The notes under the pieces: model-generated
Told to the model about the DNA's origin: nothing
Seen by the model: the letters and a program-made list of their open reading frames with translations, nothing else
Database searches by the model: none
Assembly (NCBI GenBank): GCA_013298945.1
Contig: JAAFJR010000002.1
Location: 1-64,000, forward strand
Reading direction: 5' to 3'
DNA: 64,000 nucleotides
From: Polaromonas sp.
GTDB taxonomy: Bacteria > Pseudomonadota > Gammaproteobacteria > Burkholderiales > Burkholderiaceae_C
Shown: piece by piece, positions 15 through 64,000 of the stretch
Position numbering within the stretch: position 1 is the stretch's first letter
Layout of the letters: each line of letters starts with the position of its first letter
Made by a program: the position numbers and the translations under genes

Positions 15-58
15 AGCTACTAAAATTATAGCTGTTAAGGCAATAAATACGCCGGCTA
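15..58 (+). repeat. Dispersed 45-bp repeat, copy 1 (intergenic)
   Basis: Near-consensus copy of the repeat that recurs throughout this window: a GCTA-N-TATAGC hairpin half followed by the GGCAATAAATACGCCGGCTA half. It lies just downstream of the tRNA-Arg gene (which reads leftwards). There are no coding signs here. Confidence 0.85.
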
Positions 59-81
59 GAGGAATATTTGGCATGTAAAAT

Positions 82-4832: not shown

Positions 4833-4857
4833 ATGATTTTAATGCTAAATTCGTCTG

Positions 4858-4900
4858 TAGCCGGCGTATTTGTTGCCTTAGAAGCTATTAAAAATATAGC
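4858..4900 (-). repeat. Dispersed 45-bp repeat, copy 2 (intergenic)
   Basis: Near-consensus copy in reverse orientation (TAGCCGGCGTATTTGTTGCC then GCTATTAAAAATATAGC), between the cytochrome terminator and the 3' end of the IclR gene. Confidence 0.88.
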
Positions 4901-4931
4901 AATAGCAGGTAAAATTCAAGCTGACTAGGTC

Positions 4932-9971: not shown

Positions 9972-9978
9972 TAAGTTT

Positions 9979-10021
9979 GCTCTATATTTAATAGCTGCTT
10001 AGGCAATAAATACAACGGCTA
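9979..10021 (+). repeat. Dispersed 45-bp repeat, copy 3 (intergenic)
   Basis: Copy in the convergent gap between hmgA and the IclR gene: TATATTTAATAGC half, then GGCAATAAATACAACGGCTA (two changes from the consensus CGCCGG). Confidence 0.85.
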
Positions 10022-10065
10022 TAGGTGTATTTACTGCACGAAAAACGGGTGCAAGGTTGTGATTT

Positions 10066-11086: not shown

Positions 11087-12295
11087 GTGAACAAAAGATT
11101 TACTATTAAATTGATAGCTGCTTTGGCAATGATTACGACGACTACAGCCTTATTTGCTCAGCAATCTGTGAAATTTGCATCGATTGTAGAACTGTCGGGC
11201 GGCGGCGCTAGTGCGGGCACTCAGTTCAATAATGGTTTGCAAATGGCGATCAAAGAGATCAATGCTGACGGTGGTATTTTGGGACGCAAGATTGAAGTTT
11301 CTACTAACGACACGACCACACAGCCAGGCGTGGCATTGGCGCTGACGAAAAAAGCTGTTGATCAAGATGTTTTCGCCATTTTCGGCCCCGTTTTCTCAGG
11401 TTCTATCAATGTGAGCATGAAGGAAAGCCAAAAGGCTGAAATTCCTAACTTTACCGGTGGTGAGGCTGCCAATATCACCACGCAAGGCAATCAATACATC
11501 TTCCGCACCAGCTTCACGCAAGCGACAGCTATGCCAAAAGCGGCTGCGTACATCAACAAAGACGCCAAAATCAAAAACCTTGCCATCATTTTCGTGAACA
11601 ATGATTTCGGTAAGGGCGGTTTGGACATGATGAAAAAAGCTTTGGCTGGAACTGACACAAAAATTGTGGCAGAAATTTCGACAGACGGCGGCCAAGTTGA
11701 CTTTTCAGCACCCGTTATCAAAGCCAAGCAATCCAATGCAGATGCGGTTTTTGTGTATGTGAACGAAGATGAATCAGCTCGTGCTTTGCGTGAATTGCGC
11801 AAGCAAGGTTGGACCAAGCCCGTCATTGGTGAAACCACCTTGACAGGTCAAAAAGTGATTGATTTAGCTGGTGAAGCAGCCAACGGCGCTGTGGCGCACG
11901 TCGGTTTGACGGCAGATGCGCCTATTCCTGCTTTGTTGAACTACAAAGTTAAATACTACAAAGCCTATGGCCATGAGACGGATCACAACGGCATCAAAGG
12001 CTACACGGGCGTGTACGTACTCAAAGCTGCGATTGAAAAAGTCGGTAAATTTGACCGTAAAGCTGTTGCTGCTGCCTTGCACGGTATCAAAATCAGCGCT
12101 GTTAAAAACCCAGGCGTTCTTATGAATGTTGGTTTTGACGAAAAAGGTGATTTAGATCGTGAAAGCTTCTTGGTTGAAGTCAAAAACGGCAAGCAAGTGG
12201 TTGTTGCCGTGTTGCCTCCTTTGAATGCAGACAATGTGAATGAAAAAATTGGTGCGGCTAAGCCTGCAGCTGCTAAGCCAGTGGCTAAGAAATAA
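11087..12295 (+). CDS. ABC transporter periplasmic binding protein (LivK-like)
   Basis: 402 residues. GTG start with a good ribosome binding site (GGAG, 9 bp upstream). A Sec signal peptide (residues 1 to about 25, ending 'ALFAQ') is followed by a type I periplasmic binding fold ('GLQMAIKEINADGGILGRKIEV', then 'FAIFGPVFSGS'). The C-terminus is Ala/Lys/Pro-rich. It binds the substrate for the LivHMGF proteins encoded downstream. Context with a dehydroshikimate dehydratase suggests an aromatic or hydroaromatic acid rather than an amino acid. The signal-peptide core looks like a decayed copy of the dispersed repeat. Confidence 0.93.
   Translation: MNKRFTIKLIAALAMITTTTALFAQQSVKFASIVELSGGGASAGTQFNNGLQMAIKEINADGGILGRKIEVSTNDTTTQPGVALALTKKAVDQDVFAIFGPVFSGSINVSMKESQKAEIPNFTGGEAANITTQGNQYIFRTSFTQATAMPKAAAYINKDAKIKNLAIIFVNNDFGKGGLDMMKKALAGTDTKIVAEISTDGGQVDFSAPVIKAKQSNADAVFVYVNEDESARALRELRKQGWTKPVIGETTLTGQKVIDLAGEAANGAVAHVGLTADAPIPALLNYKVKYYKAYGHETDHNGIKGYTGVYVLKAAIEKVGKFDRKAVAAALHGIKISAVKNPGVLMNVGFDEKGDLDRESFLVEVKNGKQVVVAVLPPLNADNVNEKIGAAKPAAAKPVAKK
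11102..11146 (+). repeat. Decayed dispersed repeat inside livK-like signal peptide
   Basis: The stretch ACTATTAAATTGATAGCTGC plus TTGGCAATGATTACGACGAC aligns with the consensus repeat from end to end, with scattered changes, and is read in the same frame as in lolA, hemX and the tetR-like gene. It encodes FTIKLIAALAMITTTT, the hydrophobic core of the signal peptide. Confidence 0.55.
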
Positions 12296-17686: not shown

Positions 17687-17711
17687 GTTCATTTAAACTG
17701 AAAAAATGAAC
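17687..17711. promoter_or_regulatory. Inverted repeat over the start codon of the tetR-like gene
   Basis: GTTCATTT (17687-17694) and AAATGAAC (17704-17711) are perfect inverted arms, the right one containing the ATG at 17706. It could be an autoregulatory operator or an mRNA hairpin hiding the start codon. No clear Shine-Dalgarno sequence is visible. Confidence 0.4.
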
Positions 17712-18467
17712 GAACTAGTACATTCAGCAAAACCTGCAAAACCCACGACTAGATCGGCGGCTAAAAGTGCATCTAAAAGCGTGCTAAGAAACGCTATCAA
17801 TAATATAGCTATTCAGGTAGTAAATACGCCGGCTACAGCCGAAAAACCTAGCCGTACCAATGACCCTGCACGCACCATGGCTGGTATTTTGGAGGTGGCT
17901 ACTGCAGAGTTTGCTGCTAAGGGGTTGAGTGGAGCGCGGATTGATGAAATCGCGGCTACAACCAAAACCAGCAAGCGCATGATTTACTACTATTTTGAGA
18001 GTAAAGAAGGCTTGTATGTGGCGGTTTTGGAGGAGGCATACCGCCGTATTCGGCAGATTGAGCAGCAGCTGCATTTGGAAGATTTAGCGCCTGAAGAAGC
18101 GCTGCGCATGCTGGTGGGCTTTACCGTGGACTACCAGTGGAATAACCCAGATTTCGTGCGCTTGGTGATGAATGAAAACATCCACCGTGGTGAGTTTTTA
18201 GCTCAGAGTAAAACGATTCAGGGTTTGAATATTCCGGTTGTTCACGCAGTACAGCACGTTTATGAGCGTGGTGTGGAGCAGGGTGTTTTTAGGCCCAATT
18301 TAGACCCGCTGGATTTGCATATGACAATGTCTGCGCTGAGCTTTTTCAATGTGTCTAACCACCATACGTTTTCCTTGATTTTTAAGCACAGCTTGGAAGA
18401 CGAGGTGAATTTTCGAGCCAGACGCGAGAGCATCATCGAGACCATGGTGCGCTATGTACGCTTGTAG
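17706..18467 (+). CDS. TetR family transcriptional regulator
   Basis: 253 residues. A long Ala/Ser/Lys/Thr-rich N-terminal extension (about 55 residues) precedes the helix-turn-helix 'GARIDEIAATTKTSKRMIYYYFESKEGLY' (about residues 76-104), followed by a helical ligand domain. The extension contains a translated copy of the dispersed repeat. An alternative Met near 17877 would remove the extension. It lies between the dehydratase gene and the TRAP operon, all on the same strand, and is the likely regulator of the TRAP genes; the ligand is unknown. Confidence 0.88.
   Translation: MNELVHSAKPAKPTTRSAAKSASKSVLRNAINNIAIQVVNTPATAEKPSRTNDPARTMAGILEVATAEFAAKGLSGARIDEIAATTKTSKRMIYYYFESKEGLYVAVLEEAYRRIRQIEQQLHLEDLAPEEALRMLVGFTVDYQWNNPDFVRLVMNENIHRGEFLAQSKTIQGLNIPVVHAVQHVYERGVEQGVFRPNLDPLDLHMTMSALSFFNVSNHHTFSLIFKHSLEDEVNFRARRESIIETMVRYVRL
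17793..17837 (+). repeat. Dispersed 45-bp repeat inside tetR-like gene
   Basis: Near-consensus copy, GCTATCAATAATATAGC followed by TAAATACGCCGGCTACA, translated as NAINNIAIQVVNTPAT in the disordered N-terminal extension, upstream of the DNA-binding domain. Confidence 0.88.
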
Positions 18468-24092: not shown

Positions 24093-24535
24093 TCTTTGGT
24101 TGCTCGGCGCTGAACGGCTTCAACATAAGCTTGCCCGTCAGGGGCTCGCTTATTTTGTTGAGCATCCCAAATCATTTGACCAAGGCATTCCATCACCACA
24201 TGGTGGGCATCATGCAAAGAATCGAGTCTGGCAGTCAGAAGTTCAACCGCTTGCCGAATGCCGCGCGGCTGGTCAATCGAGCATTGCTCAGTGATGGTTA
24301 AGTGCATGGAGAGATGCAAAAACGGGTTAGTTTTGCCATCGTCTGTGGTGACAATATGGTTCAAACTTTGCAGTGCAGCATCTACATCCTGTAAATCGGC
24401 ATGGTATTCTGGATGCTCATCAATCCACAAACTTGCTATGGTTTCAATAGCTTCTAAGGCAGAATTATTGCCGGCTTTGGTGTAAACAGAGCAAAAAAAA
24501 CGCCTGACATCAGCTTGTGTGGGTTGGTACAGCAT
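24089..24535 (-). CDS. DUF1841 family protein
   Basis: About 148 residues. 'PTQADVRRFFCSVYTKA', 'WIDEHPEYHADL', 'TNPFLHLSMHLTITEQCSIDQPRGIR' and 'DAHHVVMECLGQMIWDAQ' match DUF1841, a conserved cytosolic betaproteobacterial family of unknown function. I prefer the ATG at 24535, since family members start close to this position; a TTG at 24556 would add seven residues. It converges with the AroE-like gene (4 bp overlap at the ends) and diverges from the TauE gene. Confidence 0.85.
   Translation of the reverse strand: MLYQPTQADVRRFFCSVYTKAGNNSALEAIETIASLWIDEHPEYHADLQDVDAALQSLNHIVTTDDGKTNPFLHLSMHLTITEQCSIDQPRGIRQAVELLTARLDSLHDAHHVVMECLGQMIWDAQQNKRAPDGQAYVEAVQRRATKD
24435..24477 (+). repeat. Possible decayed repeat within DUF1841 gene
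   Basis: GCTATGGTTTCAATAGCTTC then TAAGGCAGAATTATTGCCGG aligns with the repeat over its whole length with about a quarter of bases changed. The gene reads it as KAGNNSALEAIETIAS, the same frame as other copies in this orientation. Part of this peptide also looks conserved in the family, so chance or convergence is possible. Confidence 0.4.
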
Positions 24536-25336: not shown

Positions 25337-27178
25337 TTAAGCAACGTTTTTTCCAGCCATCTCTCGCTCTTTTGCCATTTGCTCAGCAAGCTGTGCGCGT
25401 CCTTGTTTCACGGAACTGATGACTTTGCTTCGGTCTTGGTAGTGCGGGTGCATTTGCTCTAAAAGCTCATAGTTGTGTGTTCTGAATAGTTGCACAATGC
25501 GGCTTGCATCTGGTGCAGCGTAGCCCAGTAGTTCCAAAACGCTGCCAGCACTTTGTAAACTGCTTTCAAACAATTCCCGCTGAATCAGGGTGATATCGCG
25601 GTCACGTAGCTTGTTCCAGTGTGTTGCATCACGAGCGCGAACGACCAATTGCAGTTTTGGGAAGTGCTCTTTAGCTAAGTCAACAATGGCGAGTGATTGT
25701 TCCACATCATCGACAGCTACAACCAAAATTTGCGCGGTGGCCGCTCCCGCCGTTCGCAACAGGTCAAGCCGCGTGGCATTGCCATAAAAAACACGGTAGC
25801 CAAAGCTTCTGGCGGTTTCAATCATCTCGGCATCATGGTCAAGTACTGTGGTGGGAATGTCTTGCGCCAGTAGCAAGCGACCTACGATTTGCCCATAACG
25901 ACCAAAACCAGCGATGATGATAGGCGCGGCTTGCTGCTCTGAAATTTCATCAGGTAGCTCCACGCCGCAGTTGGCATAGCGCGGTAGCCAAAGTTTGTCG
26001 ATGGCAATCAAAATCAGCGGACTGATGAGCATGGATAGCGCCACCACGCCAATCAACAGTGATGCCGTCTCTGGCGCAAAAACTTTAGCACCAGCGGCGG
26101 CCTGAAACACCACAAAAGCAAACTCACCACCCTGTGCCAGCAGCAGGGTAAGCACGGGTCGCTCTTGAAAAGGCACCTTCATGAGACGTGTAATACCATA
26201 AATTACTGCAAATTTAATAGCAATAAAAGCAATCAATACGCCGGCTATAAGCCAAGGAGAATTGATAAGTACAGAAAAATCGATACTCATACCCACGGCG
26301 ATGAAAAACAAACCTAGCAGCAATCCTTTAAACGGTTCAATATCCGTTTCTAACTCGCGACGATATTCGCTTTCGGCTAAGAGTACTCCAGCTAGAAAAG
26401 CACCCAAAGCCATGCTCAAACCAACATACAGCATTAATGCCGCAATACCTACGACTAAAAGTAGTGATGCAGCTGTGAAGATTTCCGGCGTTTTGCTGCG
26501 CGCAATCCAGCGGAAGATCGGGCGCAGTAAGAGCCTACCACCAATCACAATGCCAGCTATTATTGCTATAATTTTAATAGCTGAATAAGCAATATCTACG
26601 CCGGATGATGCCTCATTTACCTCTGAACTTACGCCTAGAAGCGGAATCAAAGCCAAAATCGGTATCGCAGCCACGTCCTGAAACAATAAAATCGAAAATC
26701 CGGCTTGCCCACTGCTGGTGGGCAGCAAATTGCGCTCACCCATCACCTGCAGCGCAATCGCAGTTGACGACAGCGCCAAGCCCAACGCCGCGACCACTGC
26801 CGTTTTCCAACCCCCCAAAGCACTAGATACGGCTGGCATGAACAAGCTGGCACCCCACAAGGCGATGAACAAAACGGCGGCGCAACCTATCACTTGAGCG
26901 CTACCCCAACCAAAAATAGGGCGACGCAAACTCCACAGGCGCTTGGGCTCCAGCTCCAAACCCACCAAAAAGAGCATCAACACCACGCCAAACTCGGCAA
27001 AATGCAAAATATCTTGCACATTGGTGACCAAACCCAAGCCCCAAGGCCCAATCGCCATGCCAGCGGCTAAGTAGCCAATGATGCTACCCAGCCCTAGCGC
27101 TTTGGAGACAGGTACAGCGATAACGGCTGCGCCTAGGTAGATTAAACTGTTGATGAGCCAAGAAGGGGCGTGTTCCAT
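25337..27178 (-). CDS. CPA2 cation:proton antiporter with RCK domain (KefB/KefC-like)
   Basis: 613 residues. Residues 1 to about 395 are a twelve-to-thirteen-segment Na+/H+ exchanger-type membrane domain ('GYLAAGMAIGPWGLG', 'FLVGLELEPKRLW', 'ALSSTAIALQ', 'LLAQGGEFAFV'). A cytosolic TrkA-N domain with 'IIIAGFGRYGQIVGRLL' starts near residue 417. The family exchanges K+ or Na+ for H+, gated by ligands on the RCK domain. Unusually, two membrane or loop segments (about residues 192-205 and 311-326) are encoded by copies of the dispersed repeat. The C-terminus is Glu/Lys-rich. Confidence 0.92.
   Translation of the reverse strand: MEHAPSWLINSLIYLGAAVIAVPVSKALGLGSIIGYLAAGMAIGPWGLGLVTNVQDILHFAEFGVVLMLFLVGLELEPKRLWSLRRPIFGWGSAQVIGCAAVLFIALWGASLFMPAVSSALGGWKTAVVAALGLALSSTAIALQVMGERNLLPTSSGQAGFSILLFQDVAAIPILALIPLLGVSSEVNEASSGVDIAYSAIKIIAIIAGIVIGGRLLLRPIFRWIARSKTPEIFTAASLLLVVGIAALMLYVGLSMALGAFLAGVLLAESEYRRELETDIEPFKGLLLGLFFIAVGMSIDFSVLINSPWLIAGVLIAFIAIKFAVIYGITRLMKVPFQERPVLTLLLAQGGEFAFVVFQAAAGAKVFAPETASLLIGVVALSMLISPLILIAIDKLWLPRYANCGVELPDEISEQQAAPIIIAGFGRYGQIVGRLLLAQDIPTTVLDHDAEMIETARSFGYRVFYGNATRLDLLRTAGAATAQILVVAVDDVEQSLAIVDLAKEHFPKLQLVVRARDATHWNKLRDRDITLIQRELFESSLQSAGSVLELLGYAAPDASRIVQLFRTHNYELLEQMHPHYQDRSKVISSVKQGRAQLAEQMAKEREMAGKNVA
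26202..26248 (+). repeat. Dispersed repeat inside antiporter gene (copy a)
   Basis: AATTTAATAGC then GCAATCAATACGCCGGCTATA. On the coding (minus) strand it is read as IAGVLIAFIAIKFAVI and forms a membrane segment. Confidence 0.8.
26565..26606 (+). repeat. Dispersed repeat inside antiporter gene (copy b)
   Basis: GCTATAATTTTAATAGC then GCAATATCTACGCCGGATG. The gene reads it as SSGVDIAYSAIKIIAI, in the same frame as copy a, about 360 bp away in the same gene. Confidence 0.82.
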
Positions 27179-28267: not shown

Positions 28268-28984
28268 TTAATCTGATTCTGTCCTTGCAAAAACTACCGC
28301 TGTGATGTTTGTAGCGCCGGCTTGGCGCAGTGCTGCTGCCGCTGCAAACAGCGTTGCACCGCTGGTCATAACGTCATCGACAAGCAAAACGCGTTTGCCT
28401 TGTAATTCTTTGGCTCGCAAGGGTTCAACGGCAAACGCAGCCTTCACATTTTTTAATCGCTCAGATTTGCTTAGCGAGCTTTGCGTTAACGTGTCTTTGA
28501 ATCGTAACAGCAAAGTCGCATCCGTTTTGCTGCGACTGAGGTGTTTGCAAATCTCCAATGCTTGGTTGTAGCCACGTTGTTGGAGTCTGGCTACGGACAA
28601 TGGCACAGGTACGATCAGGTCTGATTCGTCAACTGCAAACTCGACTGAGGGTGCGCTTTTCAGAAGTAATGCAAACATACCCGCCCATGCTGGGTTGTTG
28701 CCAAACTTGTAACTGGCAATGCAGTCACTCCACGGGTATTCATATGAAACGGCTGTCAAGCACTCGTCCAGCGGGGGCGGCTTCACGATGCAGGCGCCGC
28801 AGCGTTTGATATCAGCTGACTTGCCAACTTTCAGTGTCAGCGCGCAAGTAGCGCAGCGCCGTACTGGTTGGGCAAAGCGCGTGATACAAGCCTCACAAAC
28901 CATGCCGTTGCTTGGCCAAGCCTTACAAACGGCGCATTGGCTGGGAATGTTGTTTAAAAAACGGCTGAATATACTGCGTTGCAT
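28268..28984 (-). CDS. ComF family phosphoribosyltransferase-like protein
   Basis: 238 residues. An N-terminal zinc-ribbon region has four Cys pairs ('CAVC', 'CEAC', 'CATC', 'CGAC'); the C-terminal PRTase domain has the PRPP loop 'VLLVDDVMTSGATL' near residues 200-213. ComF proteins are associated with DNA uptake for natural transformation, though the chemistry is unclear. It is divergent from the methyltransferase gene by 33 bp. Confidence 0.92.
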   Translation of the reverse strand: MQRSIFSRFLNNIPSQCAVCKAWPSNGMVCEACITRFAQPVRRCATCALTLKVGKSADIKRCGACIVKPPPLDECLTAVSYEYPWSDCIASYKFGNNPAWAGMFALLLKSAPSVEFAVDESDLIVPVPLSVARLQQRGYNQALEICKHLSRSKTDATLLLRFKDTLTQSSLSKSERLKNVKAAFAVEPLRAKELQGKRVLLVDDVMTSGATLFAAAAALRQAGATNITAVVFARTESD

Positions 28985-29017
28985 AGACTGCCAATATACT
29001 CTGTGTATTCAAGCACC

Positions 29018-29947
29018 ATGTCAACACAACGCCCGCCCACCATCGACCCCAAAGCCGCCGCTCATTGGCAGCGCATTGCTCCTGCTTCCACGCCCTGGCT
29101 GCACGAAGAGGTCGCCAGTCGCATGGTTGAGCGTTTGCAGTGGATCAATTTACAACCCAAAGCTTGGACGCACTGGGGCGCTGTGCGTGGTGGGCAGCTG
29201 ACGCATGTGGCATTGATTGCGAAGTATCCTGATTCAGACTGTTTTATGCCAATAGCTGGCGAATTAATTGCCGATGCTGCTATAAAAAATATAGTAAATA
29301 CGGCAAGTTCCAGCAGCAAATGGCAGTTATCCAAATTATCAAACTTTTTTAAAAGTGGTCCCAAAGTCAATTACACAACGCCAACCGACGGCGCAGTAGA
29401 CATGCTCTGGGCAAATATGCATTTGCACAACGCGCTAGACCCACAAGCCCTGATAGCCCAATGGCACAAAGCCATAGCGACGGATGGTTTTTTGATGTTC
29501 TCTTGCCTAGGTCCAGACACCCTGCGCGAACTGCGTGGTATGTACGAAAAGCTGGGCTGGCCAGTACCCAGCCACCAATTCACCGATATGCACGACTGGG
29601 GCGACATGCTCATTCAAGCCGGCTTTGCCGAGCCAGTGATGGACATGGAGCGCATCGTCCTGACCTACGAAACACCGCAAAAACTGCTTCAGGATTTGCG
29701 TGAACTGGGACGAAACCTGCACCCAGACCGCTTCCCGGCTTTGCGTGGCAAAGCGTGGAAAGCCAAGCTAGAAGCCGCGCTGGTTGATCATTTGGCTGAC
29801 CCTGCTGAGGGTGGCCGATTAAAACTGACTTTTGAAGTGATTTATGGTCATGCTATGAAACCCAAACCACGCGTCAAACTCAGCGAGCACAGTGCGGTGT
29901 CTTTGCGGGATATGCGGGAGATGTTGCAGGGCACCCGAGGACGGTAG
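29018..29947 (+). CDS. Class I SAM methyltransferase, BioC-like
   Basis: About 309 residues from the ATG at 29018; an upstream TTG at 28979 would overlap comF and is unlikely. The segment 'DMLWANMHLHNALDPQALIAQWHKA' and 'FLMFSCLGPDTLRELR' is typical of betaproteobacterial BioC-like malonyl-ACP methyltransferases of early biotin synthesis. The classical Gly-rich motif I is replaced by 'WGAVRGGQLTHV'. A copy of the dispersed repeat is translated between motif I and the 'MLWANM' segment. It shares a terminator with the converging helicase gene. Confidence 0.82.
   Translation: MSTQRPPTIDPKAAAHWQRIAPASTPWLHEEVASRMVERLQWINLQPKAWTHWGAVRGGQLTHVALIAKYPDSDCFMPIAGELIADAAIKNIVNTASSSSKWQLSKLSNFFKSGPKVNYTTPTDGAVDMLWANMHLHNALDPQALIAQWHKAIATDGFLMFSCLGPDTLRELRGMYEKLGWPVPSHQFTDMHDWGDMLIQAGFAEPVMDMERIVLTYETPQKLLQDLRELGRNLHPDRFPALRGKAWKAKLEAALVDHLADPAEGGRLKLTFEVIYGHAMKPKPRVKLSEHSAVSLRDMREMLQGTRGR
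29253..29297 (-). repeat. Dispersed repeat inside bioC-like gene
   Basis: TAGCTGGCGAATTAATTGCC then GCTATAAAAAATATAGTAA, read in frame as IAGELIADAAIKNIVN. It lies in a poorly conserved connecting region of the methyltransferase. Confidence 0.82.
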
Positions 29948-30042: not shown

Positions 30043-32139
30043 TTACTTAGCTTTAACGGTACGCGCTTTTGCCATATCACGTGGCACAAACACTTTGCCG
30101 CCATTGCCTGGCTTTGCAGCTGGCTTAGCAAACGTTGGCTTGGCAAAGCCAGGCTTTGCGAAAGCTGGTTTACGGTCTACAAAGTCGCCACGGGGCGCAA
30201 AGTCACCACGTGGAGCGAAATCTTTACGTGGCGCAAACTCACCGCGTTCTGCACGGTCGCCACGAGGGGCGAAATCACCACGTTCACCACGTGGAGCGAA
30301 GTCTTTACGAGGGGCGAAGTCACCGCGTGGGGCAAACTCTTTACGTGGGGCAAAATCGCCACGTGGAGCAAAGTCACCGCGAGGCGCTGAATCACCACGT
30401 GGAGGGAAGCCACCGCTGTTGCGGTCGTTGAAACCGCCTTTGCGGACGTAGGGGTTTGGCGCACCAAAACGATCACCTTGAGGGGCACGGTCAGCAAAGC
30501 CACCACGATCGCCGCCACCGAAACCACCACGATCACCACCACCAAAGCCACCTTGACGAGGTGCAAACTTACGGTCACGACCGCCGAAACCGCCACCGCC
30601 CCCGTGTCCACGATCACCACTAAAGCCGCCACGGTCTGGGCCACCAAAGTTGCTGCGTGATTCTGGGAAGCGTTGTTTTGGCTCTAAACCAGGAATCACT
30701 TCTGCTTTGAAAGGGGTACGTGTGTATTGCTCAATGTCCATGATACGGCGGCGGTCACGAATTTCAGCAAAGCTGACTGCGATACCGTCGCGACCCGCGC
30801 GGCCAGTACGACCAATGCGGTGGGTGTAGTCTTCAGCTTTCATCGGCAAGCCAAAGTTGAACACGTGGCTGATAGATGGCACGTCAATACCACGAGCTGC
30901 CACGTCGGTAGCGACCAAAATTTGTACATGGCCTTCGCGCAAAGCTTGCAAACGGCGGTTACGGATACCTTGGTTCAAAGCGCCGTGCAAAGCCACCGCG
31001 CTGAAACCTTCTTGTTGCAAGTCGTTGGCCAAACCATCGCACTCGATTTGTGTGCTGGCAAACACGATGGCTTGCTTAATGTTGGTGTCGCGCAACCAGT
31101 GGTCGAGCAATTTGCGTTTGTGCTGAGAGTTGTCAGCCCAGAACAACGATTGTTTGATGTTTTGGTGTTTGTCTTGTGGGCTGTCGATGGTGATGCGCTG
31201 TGGCTCACGCATCACACGGCCAGCGAGTTGCTGAATACGTGGTGCAAATGTCGCGCTGAACATCATGGTTTGATGGCGCTCAATGGTCAACTGGTTGACT
31301 TCAGCGAGATCGTCTGAGAAGCCTAAATCGAGCATACGGTCAGCTTCGTCAACGACCAAAAACTTCACTTTGTCAAGTTTCAACTGGTGTGAGCGTTGCA
31401 GGTCGAGCAAACGGCCTGGCGTTGCCACCACCAAGTTAGCGTTTTGCAACTTAGCCAATTGCAACTGGTAAGGCATGCCGCCCACCACGTTGGCAATGCG
31501 CAAGCCTTTGCAATATCGCACCAAATCAATCGCGTCGTTGGCTACTTGTTGTGCCAATTCACGGGTTGGGCACAGCACCAAAGCGCCCGGAGTAGCTGGT
31601 GTGAAGTTGCGGAAATTGGTTGGATCTTTGCGTTTAGCGCGCTTTGGAGGCGCTTCGCCACGTGCTTCGGCTTCAGCACAAGCGGCTTCAAACTCGGCTC
31701 GCTCAGCCGCAGCAGCTTGCTCTTGCTGTTTCAACAAAGTGTGAATTACTGGCAACAAAAAGGCGGCAGTTTTACCTGAACCCGTTTGGCTTGAAACCAT
31801 CAAATCGATAAATTTCTTAGGCGTGCCGTCGATTGAATCTGCTGGCAAAGCTAAAGGAATTGTTTTTTGCTGAACGATGGTGGGTTGTGTGAAACCCATT
31901 TCTTTCGTCGCTTGAATCAACTCATCTGCCAAGCCAAGGGCGATAAAACCGTTAGGCAGTTTGGCAGCTTCTTCAGCGGCCAAGGCTTTTGCAGTAGCTT
32001 CTACATCAATCTCATTTGCTACAGTATTAGTAGCTGCTGAGGCAATAAATTCGCCGGCTACAGAAGAATTTAGTGTTATTTCGGTATCAATTTGAGATTC
32101 AAATGCGTTAGTTGTCGTGTCAATCATAGAGTCAGTCAT
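30043..32139 (-). CDS. DEAD-box RNA helicase (RhlE-like)
   Basis: 698 residues. After an acidic N-terminal extension (about 65 residues, containing a translated dispersed repeat) come the Q motif 'FTQPTIVQQKTIPLAL', motif I 'SQTGSGKT', motif II 'DEAD', motif III 'SAT' and motif VI 'HRIGRTGRAGR'. From about residue 495 a Gly/Arg-rich tail passes into many FAPRGD/FAPRKD units, a likely RNA-binding disordered tail. RhlE-type helicases remodel RNA in ribosome assembly and decay, often in the cold. A 336-bp upstream region with structured elements suggests leader-based control. Confidence 0.93.
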   Translation of the reverse strand: MTDSMIDTTTNAFESQIDTEITLNSSVAGEFIASAATNTVANEIDVEATAKALAAEEAAKLPNGFIALGLADELIQATKEMGFTQPTIVQQKTIPLALPADSIDGTPKKFIDLMVSSQTGSGKTAAFLLPVIHTLLKQQEQAAAAERAEFEAACAEAEARGEAPPKRAKRKDPTNFRNFTPATPGALVLCPTRELAQQVANDAIDLVRYCKGLRIANVVGGMPYQLQLAKLQNANLVVATPGRLLDLQRSHQLKLDKVKFLVVDEADRMLDLGFSDDLAEVNQLTIERHQTMMFSATFAPRIQQLAGRVMREPQRITIDSPQDKHQNIKQSLFWADNSQHKRKLLDHWLRDTNIKQAIVFASTQIECDGLANDLQQEGFSAVALHGALNQGIRNRRLQALREGHVQILVATDVAARGIDVPSISHVFNFGLPMKAEDYTHRIGRTGRAGRDGIAVSFAEIRDRRRIMDIEQYTRTPFKAEVIPGLEPKQRFPESRSNFGGPDRGGFSGDRGHGGGGGFGGRDRKFAPRQGGFGGGDRGGFGGGDRGGFADRAPQGDRFGAPNPYVRKGGFNDRNSGGFPPRGDSAPRGDFAPRGDFAPRKEFAPRGDFAPRKDFAPRGERGDFAPRGDRAERGEFAPRKDFAPRGDFAPRGDFVDRKPAFAKPGFAKPTFAKPAAKPGNGGKVFVPRDMAKARTVKAK
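30170..30400 (-). repeat. Coding minisatellite: FAPRGD/FAPRKD units in helicase tail
   Basis: Short in-frame units of 18-24 bp encoding FAPR(G/K)(D/E) recur about a dozen times, with interspersed ERGD and RAERGE variants. Length is likely to vary between strains by slippage. Confidence 0.85.
32018..32062 (+). repeat. Dispersed repeat inside helicase gene
   Basis: GCTACAGTATTAGTAGC then GGCAATAAATTCGCCGGCTA. The gene (minus strand) reads it as VAGEFIASAATNTVAN within the acidic N-terminal extension, before the helicase core. Confidence 0.85.
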
Positions 32140-34439: not shown

Positions 34440-35431
34440 GAAAGTTACTGCAAAAAGGTCTACAAAACGGCTTGCAAAACGGCCTAATAGTGGCTGGTTT
34501 TGGCCGCCATGTGATGGTTGAAACCGATACTGGTGAACGTATCATTTGCCATCCCCGTGGTAAGAAAAACACGGCAGTCGTGGGCGACCGTATCAAGTGG
34601 TTGGCAACTCAGGATGAGGGTACGATTGAGAAGCTAGAGCCTAGGAAAAACTTGTTTTATCGGCAAGACGAAATCCGCACCAAGTCGTTCGCTGCCAATC
34701 TAGATCAAATATTAATTTTGATTGCTGCAGAGCCAGAGTTTTCTGAAAGTCAGCTCTCCCGCGCATTGATTGCCGCTGAAGCGGAGCACATCAAGCCCGT
34801 TATTGCGCTCAATAAAAGCGATTTGAAGATTCCGTTTGCCAAAGCTTGGGAGCGTTTGCAGCCCTACAAAGAGATGGGTTACGACCTTGTCTCGTTAAGT
34901 TTAAAACCTAAAAATGTCAGTATTGATAGCGATGCTGGAGACTTTGATATTGAACAAATTGAGCAACAAGCCGAGTTGCTGATGTCGCTGCTGCAGGCTA
35001 AAACCACGCTGGTTTTAGGTCCCTCAGGAGCAGGAAAAAGCACGCTGATCAATGCCGTTGTACCTAACGCCACGGTGTTTACACAAGAAATCTCACAAGC
35101 TTTAAATTCAGGCAAACACACCACAACCAGCACGACGTGGTATTGGGTAGATGAAGCCAAAACGACAGCTTTGATTGATTCGCCTGGTTTTCAAGAGTTT
35201 GGATTGAACCACATTGAAGCGGCGCACTTGGCCAGCTACATGCCGGACTTCAAAGTGCATGTTCCAAATTGCAAGTTTTACAATTGCAGCCATTTGCACG
35301 AGCCAGGATGCGGTGTTTTGGAGTCTATGAGGTTGGATGATAAAATCGACTCTAGCCGGCGTAAAATAAGCCTAGAGCGCTATAGAATTTATAGCAGTTT
35401 ATTTGCTGAGTTATCTGAAATTCGGTATTGA
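34436..35431 (+). CDS. rsgA: Ribosome small-subunit-dependent GTPase A
   Basis: 331 residues from a TTG start overlapping the protease stop (TTGA). OB-fold N-terminus ('VAGFGRHVMVE') and a circularly permuted GTPase: G4 'NKSD' near residue 126 comes before G1 'GPSGAGKST' near 195 and G3 'DSPG' near 247. Zinc knuckle Cys279-x4-Cys284-x-His286-x5-Cys292. It matures the 30S subunit. The last 25 residues coincide with a copy of the dispersed repeat, read in a different frame from the other copies yet giving a family-like 'RYRIYSSLFAEL' helix. Confidence 0.94.
   Translation: MRKLLQKGLQNGLQNGLIVAGFGRHVMVETDTGERIICHPRGKKNTAVVGDRIKWLATQDEGTIEKLEPRKNLFYRQDEIRTKSFAANLDQILILIAAEPEFSESQLSRALIAAEAEHIKPVIALNKSDLKIPFAKAWERLQPYKEMGYDLVSLSLKPKNVSIDSDAGDFDIEQIEQQAELLMSLLQAKTTLVLGPSGAGKSTLINAVVPNATVFTQEISQALNSGKHTTTSTTWYWVDEAKTTALIDSPGFQEFGLNHIEAAHLASYMPDFKVHVPNCKFYNCSHLHEPGCGVLESMRLDDKIDSSRRKISLERYRIYSSLFAELSEIRY
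35353..35396 (-). repeat. Dispersed repeat in the 3' end of rsgA
   Basis: TAGCCGGCGTAAAATAAGCC then GCTATAGAATTTATAGC. Read as SSRRKISLERYRIYSS. Confidence 0.75.
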
Positions 35432-38559: not shown

Positions 38560-38645
38560 CTATTAGTTGTGTGAGATGGGTTAGGCTGAGTAGACGCGAG
38601 TTAGATAACCGTGCGATTTACTGTCTTAAGAGTGGAAAATAGCTG

Positions 38646-38690
38646 TAGACGGCGTATTTGTTGCCTGAGTAGCTATAAAAAATATAGTAA
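38646..38690 (-). repeat. Dispersed repeat, islet left copy (intergenic)
   Basis: TAGACGGCGTATTTGTTGCC then GCTATAAAAAATATAGTAA. It is part of a longer segment (38646-38765) that matches 40068-40188. Confidence 0.88.
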
Positions 38691-39927: not shown

Positions 39928-40067
39928 GGTTTTAAAGTTTGCTTGAATGAAGTGATTGCATATTAAAGTAAAATTTACTACGAGTCAAGGCGATGAAAGC
40001 TTGCTTTAATTAGCCAAAAAAGTGCTTATCACAAGGAAATCCTGTTTTTGTGGATAATATTGGCCTA

Positions 40068-40111
40068 TAGCCGGCGTATTTATTGCCTAGATTGCTATAA
40101 AAAATGTAGTA
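40068..40111 (-). repeat. Dispersed repeat, islet right copy (intergenic)
   Basis: TAGCCGGCGTATTTATTGCC then GCTATAAAAAATGTAGTAA, immediately downstream of trmD. It is part of the longer segment 40068-40188 duplicated at 38646-38765. Confidence 0.88.
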
Positions 40112-40158
40112 AAAATTGCGCATTGAGGGAGTCTAAATGCCTCAAGTTCAATCTAAAA

Positions 40159-43044: not shown

Positions 43045-43068
43045 TTTGAAAAGACTAAAATATGGCTC

Positions 43069-43113
43069 TAGTCGGCGTATTTATTGCCTAAGTTGCTATT
43101 AAAAGTATAGCAA
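43069..43113 (-). repeat. Dispersed repeat (intergenic, next to pit stop codon)
   Basis: TAGTCGGCGTATTTATTGCC then GCTATTAAAAGTATAGC, between the converging TM2-like and phosphate transporter genes. It abuts the transporter stop codon. Confidence 0.88.
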
Positions 43114-52787: not shown

Positions 52788-53447
52788 ATGTTTAAATATT
52801 TTGCTATTTTATTTATAGCTATTCAGTCAATAAATACGCCGGCTGCAGGCCTAAATTCACTTGAAAGCTTCTTAAAATCAACAAATTCTGGCAAGGCAGA
52901 GTTTAGCCAAGTTGTGACCAGTCCAGCTAAGACTGACACAGCTGAAAAAGCCGCGCCAAAGGTGAAAACATCAAGCGGTACGTTCGAGTTTTCACGACCA
53001 AATAAATTCAAGTTCCTCTACAAAAAGCCGTTCGAGCAAACCATCGTGGCTGATGGCACAACGCTGTGGCTCTTTGATGTAGATTTGAACCAAGTCACGG
53101 CTAGAAAGCAATCCCAAGCTTTAGGCTCAACACCCGCAGCCTTGATAGCCACGGCTGCTAATTTGAAAGCTTTAGAAGCCGAGTTCAAACTGCAAGACGC
53201 ACCTGATGCCAACGGCATGCAGTGGGTCATAGCCATGCCAAAAGCCAAAGACGGGCAGATTCAAAGCATTAAAGTTGGTTTGAAAGGCACCGCGGAGACG
53301 GGTGTTTCCCTCTCAGTTTTAGAGATTTTGGACAGCTTTGGTCAACGCTCAGTCATTAATTTCGCCAATGTGGAGCGGAATTTGAGCTTTGGCGCAGACA
53401 ACTTCCGCTTTAAGCCGCCTGTGGGGGCGGATGTGATTCGGCAGTGA
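52788..53447 (+). CDS. lolA: Outer-membrane lipoprotein carrier protein LolA
   Basis: 219 residues. Half-barrel fold with 'GTFEFSRPNKFKFLYKKPFEQTIVADGTTLWLFDVDLNQVTAR' region, diagnostic for LolA. It carries lipoproteins across the periplasm. The hydrophobic core of its signal peptide (residues about 5-20) is encoded by a near-perfect copy of the dispersed repeat. Between ftsK and rarA, the usual order. Confidence 0.95.
   Translation: MFKYFAILFIAIQSINTPAAGLNSLESFLKSTNSGKAEFSQVVTSPAKTDTAEKAAPKVKTSSGTFEFSRPNKFKFLYKKPFEQTIVADGTTLWLFDVDLNQVTARKQSQALGSTPAALIATAANLKALEAEFKLQDAPDANGMQWVIAMPKAKDGQIQSIKVGLKGTAETGVSLSVLEILDSFGQRSVINFANVERNLSFGADNFRFKPPVGADVIRQ
52803..52847 (+). repeat. Dispersed repeat forming the lolA signal peptide
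   Basis: GCTATTTTATTTATAGC then TCAATAAATACGCCGGCTGC, read as AILFIAIQSINTPAA. One of the best-preserved coding copies. Confidence 0.88.
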
Positions 53448-53472: not shown

Positions 53473-54750
53473 ATGTTAAATAATCCGCCGCTGGCAGAGC
53501 GGATGCGCCCAAAAACGCTTTCCGAAGTCATAGGTCAACAGCATGTTTTGGGCGAGGGCATGGCGCTGCGGATTGCTTTTGAGTCTGGGCAGCCACACAG
53601 CTGCATTCTTTGGGGACCGCCTGGGGTGGGGAAGACGACGATTGCGAGGTTGATGGCGAATGCGTTTGATGCGCAGTTCATCACCATCAGTGCGACATTG
53701 GGTGGGGTGAAGGATATTCGTGAAGCAGTGGAGCAGGCGCAGATTTGGCAGGGGCAGGGCAGGCGGACGATTGTGTTTGTGGACGAGGTGCATCGGTTCA
53801 ATAAATCGCAGCAAGATGCATTTTTACCCCATGTTGAGAGCGGTTTGTTGACCTTTATCGGTGCGACGACTGAGAACCCTTCGTTTGAAGTTAACTCCGC
53901 TTTGTTATCCCGCGCAGCCGTTTATGTGTTGCAACCTTTGTCATCTGCTAATTTGGAGAAAATTATTGCTCTAGCCGGCGTATTTGTTGCCTCAATAGCT
54001 ATAGATAAAATAGCAATTGATAAGCTGGTAGCGTATGCGGATGGCGATGCACGGCGTTTGCTGAATACGCTTGAAAACCTGTACATCGCCGCTGAGAAAG
54101 AGAAGATTACAACGATTACCGACGCTTGGCTTACCCAAGTGTTAGGCGAGCGCATGCGCCGTTACGACAAAGGTGGAGAGCAGTTTTACGACACCATCAG
54201 TGCTTTGCACAAAAGCGTGCGCGGCTCAGACCCAGATGCATCGCTTTACTGGTTTGTTCGGATGTTGGACGGTGGGGCAGACCCGCGCTATATGGCGCGT
54301 CGGCTAGTGCGCATGGCCAGCGAAGATATTGGCTTGGCAGACCCGCGAGCGCTGTCCATGGCTTTGGATGCGGCGAATACGTATGAACGATTGGGTTCGC
54401 CGGAGGGAGAGCTGGCCTTGGCGCAATGCGTTATTTATTTGGCGGTTGCGCCCAAATCAAACGCGGTCTACAAAGCTTTCAACGCTGTTAAAGCGCATAT
54501 CAAAAAAGACGGCACGCGCCCGGTGCCTATGCATCTGCGTAACGCGCCTACCAAGCTGATGAAAGAGCTGGACTACGGCAAAGGCTACCGCTACGCGCAT
54601 GATGAAGCTGATGGATTTGCCGCTGGAGAGCAATATATGCCAGATGGCATGAAAGATGCTTTGTTCTATGAACCTGTAGAGCGCGGTTTGGAAATTAAGA
54701 TTGCTGAAAAATTGAGAAAATTAAGAGATTTAAACAATAAGCAAATCTAA
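53473..54750 (+). CDS. rarA: Replication-associated recombination protein A
   Basis: 425 residues. AAA+ clamp-loader-like: Walker A 'GPPGVGKTTIARLM', Walker B 'VFVDEVHRFNKSQQD', then the MgsA-type C-terminal tetramerisation domain ('SALHKSVRGSDPDASLYWFVRMLDGGADPRYMARRLVRMASEDIG'-type segment). It acts at stalled forks. A repeat copy is translated in the lid region, between 'PLSSANLEKI' and 'KLVAYADGDARRLLN'. Confidence 0.95.
   Translation: MLNNPPLAERMRPKTLSEVIGQQHVLGEGMALRIAFESGQPHSCILWGPPGVGKTTIARLMANAFDAQFITISATLGGVKDIREAVEQAQIWQGQGRRTIVFVDEVHRFNKSQQDAFLPHVESGLLTFIGATTENPSFEVNSALLSRAAVYVLQPLSSANLEKIIALAGVFVASIAIDKIAIDKLVAYADGDARRLLNTLENLYIAAEKEKITTITDAWLTQVLGERMRRYDKGGEQFYDTISALHKSVRGSDPDASLYWFVRMLDGGADPRYMARRLVRMASEDIGLADPRALSMALDAANTYERLGSPEGELALAQCVIYLAVAPKSNAVYKAFNAVKAHIKKDGTRPVPMHLRNAPTKLMKELDYGKGYRYAHDEADGFAAGEQYMPDGMKDALFYEPVERGLEIKIAEKLRKLRDLNNKQI
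53972..54016 (-). repeat. Dispersed repeat inside rarA
   Basis: TAGCCGGCGTATTTGTTGCC then GCTATAGATAAAATAGCAA, read as LAGVFVASIAIDKIAI in the AAA+ lid. Confidence 0.88.
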
Positions 54751-58502: not shown

Positions 58503-58529
58503 AAGTCATTATATTTATCGCTGATTTTT

Positions 58530-58574
58530 GCTATAAATATTATAGCTTGACAGACAATGAATACGCCGGCTACA
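58530..58574 (+). repeat. Dispersed repeat merging into the livF terminator
   Basis: GCTATAAATATTATAGC then CAATGAATACGCCGGCTACA; its right end forms the left arm of the following terminator stem. Confidence 0.88.
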
Positions 58575-58605
58575 GAGTATTTTATGCTCTGTAGCCGGTT
58601 TTTTT
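58566..58605 (+). terminator. Rho-independent terminator of livHMGF, repeat-derived
   Basis: Perfect 12-bp stem CCGGCTACAGAG / CTCTGTAGCCGG with a 9-nt loop, then seven T. The left arm is the end of the dispersed repeat. Confidence 0.92.
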
Positions 58606-62577: not shown

Positions 62578-63411
62578 ATGAAAATCATCGTGACCCGCCC
62601 TCGCCTAGAGGCTGATGTTTGGGTCAAGCAATTGCGAGCTTTGAACTTTGATGCCGTTGCGTTACCGTTGATTCACATTGGCGCACCAGCGGATAACGGC
62701 GATGTTGCGAAAGCTTGGGAGAGCTTGGATCAATACAGTGCTGTGATGTTTGTGAGTAGTAATGCAGTTCGCTATTTTTACCCTTCAAATATGCCTTTAG
62801 CCGGCGTATTTATTGACTCTACAGCTATTAAAAACATAGTAAATTATGGTGAGTCGAGAGCTATGCCTAGAATGTGGGCGACTGGCCCGGGTACACGTGA
62901 AGCTTTGTTGGCGCAGGGTGTGCCTAGCGCTTTGATTGTTTCACCTGCTTCAGATGCGGCGCAGTTTGACTCAGAAACGCTTTGGGATATGGTGAAAAGC
63001 CAAGTCAAACTGACTGACAAAGTGCTGATTGTTCGGGGACGCTCGCAAGGTTTGATGCAAGGTTTGATGAACGGTCGCCCTTGGTTGGCTGATCAGTTGA
63101 CGGCAGCGGATGTGCAGGTGGATACTGTGATCAGCTACGAGCGCAGCGCACCTGTGTTTGACGCGGCAGAATTAGCTTTGGTGCGTCAAGCCAGTACAAA
63201 TCAATCCATATGGCTGCTCAGCAGTTCTGAAGCCGTTGCCAATTTGTGCAAGGTGGCGGGCATAGATTCAGGCTTGAACTGGTCAAATGCCAAAGCCATC
63301 GCCACCCACCCGCGCATTGCACAGGCTGCCAGAGAAGCTGGATTTGGTGTTGTTTACGAGTCACGTCCGCTTCTGGCAGATGTGGTGGCTTCTATAGAAT
63401 CTATGCCATGA
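62578..63411 (+). CDS. hemD: Uroporphyrinogen-III synthase
   Basis: 277 residues, a fast-evolving family: 'IIVTRPRLEADVWVKQLRALNFDAVALPLIHI' start, 'ATGPGTREALLAQGV' and 'IWLLSSSEAVANL' fit HemD. It closes and inverts ring D. A dispersed repeat is translated between 'SNAVRYFYPSN' and 'RMWATGPGT', lengthening a loop just before the conserved glycine motif. Overlaps hemX by 4 bp (ATGA). Confidence 0.92.
   Translation: MKIIVTRPRLEADVWVKQLRALNFDAVALPLIHIGAPADNGDVAKAWESLDQYSAVMFVSSNAVRYFYPSNMPLAGVFIDSTAIKNIVNYGESRAMPRMWATGPGTREALLAQGVPSALIVSPASDAAQFDSETLWDMVKSQVKLTDKVLIVRGRSQGLMQGLMNGRPWLADQLTAADVQVDTVISYERSAPVFDAAELALVRQASTNQSIWLLSSSEAVANLCKVAGIDSGLNWSNAKAIATHPRIAQAAREAGFGVVYESRPLLADVVASIESMP
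62798..62842 (-). repeat. Dispersed repeat inside hemD
   Basis: TAGCCGGCGTATTTATTGAC then GCTATTAAAAACATAGTAA, read as LAGVFIDSTAIKNIVN. Confidence 0.88.
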
Positions 63412-64000
63412 GCGACATTTCAATGCAAGAAAAACCCAGCAGCCCGGAGGTCGTGGCCCCAGCTGTCCCTGCCGCAGTCCCCATGGCTGCCCAAGATGTA
63501 AGCGTTTCGGGTGGATTTTCTAAGTTTTTTACTATATTTATAATAGCAGCTCTGTCAATATCTATGCTGGCTAGCTTCTATCTATGGCGTAAACTGACGA
63601 ATATGCAAGAGCATTTGGCCAGACAAAGCGCCGACGCCACCAATTTAAGCGTTGAAGCGCGCAGTTTGGCTAAAAATGCACAAGATGTGGCGCGGGAGGC
63701 ATCTGCCAGATCGTCGTTGAACGAAACTAAGTTAAGCGAAGTTGCCCTGCAGCGCAGCCAGTTGGACGAATTAATGCAAAGTTTGTCCCGCTCGCGCGAT
63801 GAAAACTTGGTGGTGGATGTGGAGTCTGCCCTGCGATTGGCGCAGCAGCAAGCGCAGTTAACTGGTAGTGTCGAGCCGCTCTTGGCGGCTTTAAAAACAG
63901 CAGACCAAAGGCTGGCCAGAGCGGCGCAACCCCGGTTAAACGGTGTTCGCAGAGCCTTGGCCAGCGATACCGACAAAATCAAAGCGGCAGCGGTGACGGA
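63408..64000 (+). CDS. hemX: HemX-like uroporphyrinogen-III C-methyltransferase family protein (partial)
   Basis: At least 197 residues; the gene runs off the window. A Pro/Ala-rich cytosolic N-terminus, one membrane segment (about residues 41-60), then a long coiled-coil periplasmic region ('LARQSADATNLSVEARSLAKN', 'SALRLAQQQAQLTG') as in HemX. Despite the family name no methyltransferase domain is present; it is thought to organise haem synthesis at the membrane. The membrane segment is encoded by a repeat copy. Coupled to hemD by an ATGA overlap. Confidence 0.9.
   Translation, partial: MSDISMQEKPSSPEVVAPAVPAAVPMAAQDVSVSGGFSKFFTIFIIAALSISMLASFYLWRKLTNMQEHLARQSADATNLSVEARSLAKNAQDVAREASARSSLNETKLSEVALQRSQLDELMQSLSRSRDENLVVDVESALRLAQQQAQLTGSVEPLLAALKTADQRLARAAQPRLNGVRRALASDTDKIKAAAVT
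63531..63572 (+). repeat. Dispersed repeat forming the hemX membrane segment
   Basis: ACTATATTTATAATAGC then GTCAATATCTATGCTGGCT, read as TIFIIAALSISMLA, in the same frame as the lolA copy. Partly decayed. Confidence 0.7.

Follow-up and report, generated by a model that had tools for sequence, protein, structure and literature searches.

The lolA gene of this Polaromonas genome (3.07 Mb) raises the question of how a piece of repeated DNA comes to encode the export signal of a conserved carrier protein. The gene lies at 52788–53447 on the forward strand of the window, the whole 64-kb stretch of DNA that was analysed, in the order ftsK–lolA–rarA. Its product matches PF03548 (E 1.8e-36) and TIGR00547 (E 2.5e-58), the latter with 196.9 bits against a cut-off of 112, and the LolA domain covers the mature protein. 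The nearest named LolA relatives found belong to a Polaromonas MAG and a Comamonadaceae MAG, followed by Rhodoferax and Comamonas. The N-terminus satisfies a rough, sequence-based heuristic for signal peptides (n-, h- and c-region and cleavage site). Within the 5' sequence of the gene (MFKYFAILFIAIQSINTPAAGLNSLESF), codons 5–20, the h- and c-region of the predicted signal peptide, are spanned by a copy of a 48-nt dispersed motif at 52801–52848 (+), read in the frame AILFIAIQSINTPAAG; the n-region (MFKY, 52788–52800) lies outside the repeat. It is therefore confirmed that the predicted LolA signal peptide is encoded by a copy of the motif. A sequence-only reading of the locus had placed the repeat under the hydrophobic core at 52803–52847, and both the coincidence and, to within a few bases, the coordinates are borne out by nhmmer (46.8 bits, rank 61 of 208). 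Its description of the copy as almost perfect goes too far: the match is far beyond chance, but only 38 of 48 letters are identical to the consensus of the genome, five of the ten mismatches being in a variable A/T spacer. From what is known of LolA and of Sec signals, the Sec machinery and signal peptidase would use the peptide as drawn.

The motif has 38% G+C and the consensus TTGCTATAAATTTAATAGCTGCTTAGGCAATAAATACGCCGGCTACAG in this genome. An HMM built from the window copies finds 19 of them in the window and, once retrained, 197 at E<1e-4 and 208 at E<1e-2 in 41 stretches totalling 864 kb (28% of the genome), which by extrapolation from the 197 gives about 700 copies per genome. The same 864 kb reversed yielded 0 matches with the same HMM. 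Searched as the strict pattern TTGCTA-N8-ATAGC, the motif has 213 matches in this genome; the pattern read backwards has 4. The 202 copies at E<1e-3 comprise 101 intergenic, 65 internal coding and 24 N-terminal copies (within the first 45 codons; 801 genes from a hexamer-scored ORF picker) and 12 at other gene ends. The two strands carry 81 and 116 copies (p 0.015).

All window copies were located by nhmmer. Besides that of lolA, three are intergenic, at 43066–43113 (−), 58528–58575 (+) and 63529–63573 (+), and others lie at 16–61 (+), 4855–4902 (−; 53.9 bits, the highest score in the window), 9977–10024 (+), 35350–35396 (−), 38643–38690 (−) and 40065–40112 (−). By position and frame, the copy at 11100–11147 (+) forms the predicted signal peptide of a periplasmic binding protein (ORF 11087–12295, PF13458), that at 17793–17838 (+) the N-terminal part of ORF 17706–18467, and that at 32016–32063 (+) is close to the N-terminus of ORF 30043–32139 (−), while a weak copy of 21 bits at 24433–24476 (+) is coding. 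ORF 25337–27178 (−), which resembles a membrane protein, contains two copies, at 26203–26248 (+) and 26563–26604 (+). Single copies are found in ORF 28979–29947 (+), at 29253–29297 (−), in ORF 62578–63411 (+), at 62795–62842 (−), and as coding sequence inside rarA/mgsA, at 53969–54016 (−), in the orientation opposite to the lolA copy. ORF 30043–32139 also holds 18-bp tandem repeats (30180–30418) unrelated to the dispersed motif. An Rfam scan of the window returned two tRNAs and no other match at gathering score.

LolA has company in its use of the motif. Signal peptides built from it seem, as judged from sequence, to be present in about 10 further exported proteins (LolB, an MltB-type protein, DsbD, TctC, RseB and others). 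Seventeen of the 24 N-terminal copies are sense in the signal-peptide frame, which reads A-I-x-x-I-A-x-x-A-I-N-T-P-A-T-[A/G]. In this manner the motif makes the N-termini of an SLT_2 transglycosylase (MQQRLIFAILFIAIQAMNMPATAQN), DsbD (LFTIIFIAIQAINTPATAQ), LolB (LSLFFAINLIAGCAINTPANG, where the copy takes in a lipobox-like LIAGC) and the binding protein at window position 11087 (VNKRFTIKLIAALAMITTTTALFAQ), and the opposite orientation forms those of RseB, a TctC protein and a PBP_like_2 protein. A domain scan covered 20 of the 28 proteins with an N-terminal or start-overlapping copy, lolA being scanned separately; 12 of these carriers we take to belong to exported or envelope families (DUF547 being the least sure), five to be cytosolic and three to be undecided. 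In 10 of the 12 exported or envelope carriers the hydrophobic core lies within the copy; in MlaA and PCuAC the copy precedes the main hydrophobic stretch, and in the cytosolic carriers (CysN-like and Era-like GTPases and others) it forms an N-terminal stretch. The rough heuristic flags signal-peptide-like N-termini in 16 of 27 genes with a copy against 157 of 743 others (p 2.8e-5), a count that includes three genes in which the copy does no more than overlap the start, and that leaves out two carriers taken for exported (PCuAC and the TctC of locus L051). With the four start-overlap genes removed the figure is 13 of 23 (p 3e-4). The spacer is richer in T in signal-peptide copies than in other sense coding copies (p 0.035) but no richer than in intergenic copies (p 0.27), and this difference was set aside as evidence. 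The earlier suggestion that the forward frame is predisposed to make signal peptides agrees with these results, since AIxFIAxxAINTPAT[A/G] combines a hydrophobic stretch with a plausible cleavage site and underlies predicted signal peptides in several unrelated exported proteins.

The association extends across the GTDB family. Among 200 of its genomes the strict pattern occurs at least 10 times in 58, 4–9 times in 8 and 0–3 times in 134, and the motif-rich genomes span 45 of 141 genera (counted by hand). A lolA match was present in 196 of the genomes, and the start of the gene was read in 90 of them: 56 of the 57 motif-rich genomes and 34 of the 139 motif-poor ones, the latter drawn mostly from the better LolA matches (loci L002 and L005 to L009, which come without a motif count, are outside these figures). 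The sequence-only reading had named relatives free of the repeat but with the same signal peptide as the finding that would count against it; of the 56 motif-rich genomes 38 have the in-frame ATA-GC core in lolA, and of the 34 motif-poor ones 2 do (p 3e-9, kinship ignored). Of the ATAGC occurrences in lolA of motif-rich genomes, 38 keep the ATA frame and one lies in a different frame. Many of the loci with an in-frame core have 60–70% G+C, a composition at which ATA is expected to be a rare codon. Similarly, the core is present in the signal peptide of the MltB-type protein in 10 of 14 motif-rich and 0 of 8 motif-poor genomes and in that of DsbD in 8 of 14 and 0 of 5 (kinship ignored in both). 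These counts come from 30 of 30 MltB and 22 of 30 DsbD loci read and leave aside genome G003 and genomes outside the family, in which the core was found in 0 of 7 MltB and 0 of 2 DsbD loci. Within motif-rich genomes it is absent from 18 of 56 lolA, 4 of 14 MltB and 6 of 14 DsbD genes. On a LolA tree with six supported independent pairs, too few to be decisive, the trait goes with motif richness in 2.6 pairs on average and against it in 0.0 (p 0.25). The two motif-poor carriers of the lolA core, L111 (genome G156) and L128 (G199), have five and four strict copies, respectively, and at L131 (G121), with 0 strict copies, the start of lolA resembles the repeat with GTAGC. Such motif-like starts in motif-poor genomes may be remnants left in lineages from which the motif has disappeared.

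The repeats differ between genera. The left half of the motif is common to the genomes examined, whereas the right half varies, being GCGCAGG..CTGCGC in Rhodoferax, GCGCTT..AAGCGC in genome G089 and GGCAATAAATACGCC in the present genus. Dialect profiles were made from copies found by pattern, with the lolA copies excluded (67 from the present genome, 10 each from G004 and G103, 9 from G017 and 20 from G089). In all five genomes the right half of lolA scores highest on the repeats of its own genome, an outcome given by 1 of 120 permutations; the margin for G017 is small (14.2 against 12.0 bits). As each lolA copy best fits its own dialect, the sequences indicate that it is either re-seeded or kept matched to its genome's repeats. 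Nor did the lolA copy first arise in this genus, other genera showing their own dialect in lolA.

Whether copies arrive by insertion or by change in place was approached through 800 kb of the motif-free genome G084, where 32 of 89 proteins had a homologue, giving 26 comparable coding copies, some of them in poor alignments (proteins 22–33% identical). Twelve of the 26 are length-neutral (within 2 residues) and eight are insertions of at least 8 residues, compared with 82% and 1.5% (15) of 1004 control windows (p 2e-8 for insertions). Restricting the set by hand to proteins of at least 40% identity leaves 9 of 17 neutral and 4 of 17 inserted. Conservation of the repeat windows in G084 is poor, at 28% identity against 55%. 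The length-neutral copies are weaker on average (33 vs 40 bits, p 0.10), with four under 28 bits, and some of them may be chance or decayed matches. Compared with the best PDB homologues, WaaF and FolP are gap-free over the copy, FabD, MoaC and PgeF are 4 to 8 residues longer, and MoeA and PurL longer by 14 or more. The copy region of RarA is length-neutral with respect to Rhodoferax, the motif-free G084 and E. coli RarA.

Within the genus, 26 comparisons (16 of the 24 copies of an 84-kb stretch against G001 and/or G003) gave no clear empty site, the mark by which a MITE would be recognized in relatives. An HMM copy is found at the same site in 24, and the other two have in its place sequence of about equal length that the HMM does not match, 87% and 74% identical to the present copy. 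Copies are more alike than their 80-nt flanks, with 85% vs 75% identity in genes (19 comparisons) and 78% vs 70% in intergenic DNA (6); 21 of 25 comparisons agree, with one tie and three against, in a test slightly biased by the choice of copies on consensus match and made of rows from two species with shared sites. For lolA the identity is 90–92% inside the copy and 77–80% in the flanks. The proposal that a mobile repeat had replaced an export signal is not upheld in that form, as the copy is present in 24 of 26 comparisons within the genus, the copies are evenly spaced and the lolA copy is shared, in their own dialects, by other genera.

The spacing was measured in 40 stretches of 20 kb of this genome only, where the dispersion index of copies is 0.39 (Poisson 1; p 2e-4). 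Spacings below 500 bp make up 3.8% against 12% under random placement, a value as low being seen in 1 of 2000 simulations. Spacing more even than random is a trait of DNA uptake sequences, and insertion elements are expected at random or clustered positions. ComEC is present in the genome; it was also matched in 10 of 14 control genomes and so is not specific. No uptake receptor was identified, and PF11012 (DUF2850) matched nowhere, an uninformative result.

A structured RNA was rejected for this genus, as the copies (n=196) have no covariation beyond shuffles and the consensus fold has a z of 0. In two other genera the consensus forms strong hairpins (z −3.9 and −3.6), and in pooled copies of four other genomes 3 of 10 pairs exceed the pairing seen in shuffled sequences. 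A RAYT-type gene (PF01797) is found in 29 of 32 motif-rich and 45 of 68 motif-poor genomes (p 0.013, kinship ignored). Thirty RAYT loci were scanned, nine of them from motif-rich genomes, and the strict motif is within about 1.5 kb at one of the nine. RAYT as the mover of the motif was set aside, the association being weak and the linkage little. The single RAYT-like gene of the present genome (L010, 1462–2225; G000:C1, about 192.2 kb) seems by eye to have inverted ends of its own, of the type GGGTCAGATTCCAATTAAAA, and a repeat copy begins 17 nt past its stop codon, within these apparent ends.

What was observed directly, namely the copy, its frame, its recurrence in several exported genes, the family-wide association and the dialect match in five genomes, could be accounted for as follows. 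An old genome-wide 48-nt motif with genus-specific dialects would be maintained and propagated by a process at the DNA level, and one of its copies would encode the LolA signal peptide. In one frame its fixed letters would give a hydrophobic core and then small residues fit for cleavage. As export signals accept nearly any such sequence, copies at the 5' ends of exported genes would be retained and become the signal peptide. We put the probability that the LolA signal peptide is a copy of such a DNA-driven, dialect-bearing motif, retained as an export signal, at roughly 0.55. The driving process looks somewhat more like the drive on DNA uptake sequences than like transposition because of the even spacing, the sharing by descent and the conservation. 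The eight net insertions among 26 coding copies are what insertion would give and count against a driven motif, as do its length beside known uptake sequences, the strong hairpins of two other genera and the unequal strands. The five cytosolic carriers and the motif-rich genomes without the core also weigh against the explanation as a whole. Confidence in it, and in the more far-reaching version given below, is lowered a little because the length-neutral copies are weaker than the inserted ones.

The principal competitor is a non-autonomous mobile element, MITE- or REP-like, that inserted in or beside exported genes, its hydrophobic frame being exapted as a signal peptide and its old copies now fixed. 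The insertions relative to the motif-free genome, which tend to be the stronger copies, the dialect-specific hairpins of other genera and a RAYT-type gene that is present here and commoner in motif-rich genomes would all suit such an element, which we regard as a possible but less probable source. It fits poorly with the lack of a clear empty site in the comparisons with G001 and G003, the under-dispersed spacing, the 12 length-neutral coding copies, the strict motif at only one of nine RAYT loci from motif-rich genomes and the separate ends apparent for the RAYT gene here. A single insertion into lolA in the family ancestor, followed only by drift, would explain why the frame and a 26-residue length up to SLE are shared by this genus, two Rhodoferax and a Comamonas (by eye; no repeat was found at that Comamonas lolA locus, and its genome is outside the motif counts). 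The dialect match would then be coincidence or shared ancestry, and with the variable half fitting its own dialect in five of five genomes and the core absent from lolA in 32 of 34 motif-poor ones, this is improbable. Convergence alone, in which a common composition and A/T-rich rare codons would make signal peptides look like the repeat by accident, can draw on that likeness of composition, on the 157 of 743 other genes flagged by the heuristic and on the lolA core in two motif-poor genomes. The right half TCAATAAATACGCCGGCTGCAG retained in lolA, the empty reversed control, the 213 strict matches against 4 backwards and the way in which the lolA core tracks motif abundance make it very improbable indeed.

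The driven motif shares features with several known systems. Uptake sequences of Neisseria and Pasteurellaceae, as described by van Passel (2008, PMC2346458) and Treangen (2008, PMC2397512), similarly number hundreds, on either strand and inside as well as outside genes, with a second version of the motif in a subclade and a frame preference. In Neisseria the distances between copies reportedly correspond to conversion fragments (PMC2397512), and opposite new copies relatives often have gaps or unrelated sequence (PMC2346458, PMC2397512). The present motif agrees with uptake sequences in its hundreds of copies on both strands, in genes and between them, in its dialects in relatives and, in this genome, in its spacing, but is conserved over about 48 nt where theirs are short cores of 10–12 nt. 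The enterobacterial RU (ERIC-type) mobile sequences with ORFs described by Delihas (2007, PMC2759123) concern mainly one putative exported protein and are 103–168 bp long, whereas the 48-nt motif concerns a conserved carrier and about 10 other proteins, is family-wide and has dialects. Rickettsia palindromic elements are likewise small repeats read in frame inside genes, but are inserted and about 150 bp long (PMC10969869), compared with 48 nt, 12 of 26 length-neutral copies and 8 of 26 insertions here. BRE is also a small repeat of Comamonadaceae, including Polaromonas and Rhodoferax, with some copies in coding sequence. As described in PMC3110155, it is 75–91 bp long, with 69% G+C in Bordetella, at most 29 copies and sometimes a tandem arrangement; the motif, with 48 nt, 38% G+C and about 700 copies, is set apart by that description. 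REP/RAYT systems, for which see PMC2817692, share the high copy number, the presence of a RAYT-type gene and, in other genera, the palindromic form, and are unlike the motif in that here RAYT linkage is little and the fold of the genome's own consensus is not beyond chance. Among the literature matches listed there is no report of the motif or of its family-wide use in signal peptides, and none names an uptake sequence for this GTDB family.

The usual view of signal peptides is that each gene evolves its own, under loose constraint. In the present case one dispersed DNA motif supplies the same kind of predicted signal peptide to LolA, LolB, the MltB-type protein, DsbD, TctC and others, and that of lolA has the dialect of its genome's repeats; protein addressing in this bacterium and many relatives thus seems to be shaped by a genome-wide DNA motif. 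The origin of export signals becomes open to test, as does the question whether a DNA-level drive is able to rewrite conserved genes. Should the motif prove to steer DNA uptake, Neisseriaceae and Pasteurellaceae would not be the only families with an uptake sequence. The fullest version, which we advance only tentatively and hold to be rather doubtful, is that an undescribed, long, dialect-bearing, uptake-like motif of this family can overwrite genes in place and has come to encode many signal peptides, with unrelated export signals evolving in concert with it instead of separately.

Some minor features of individual copies may be added. Consensus positions 24–26 are a TAG stop in the signal-peptide frame, and lolA and the other copies shown have CAG. 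The copies in the two GTPases, at L064 4265–4309 (CysN-like) and L045 17771–17817 (Era-like), both identified by Pfam domains, use the signal-peptide frame. LolB (L071, 16320–16364), MlaA (L043, 1727–1773) and LolA form an outer-membrane lipid and lipoprotein transport trio, each member of which has an N-terminal repeat.
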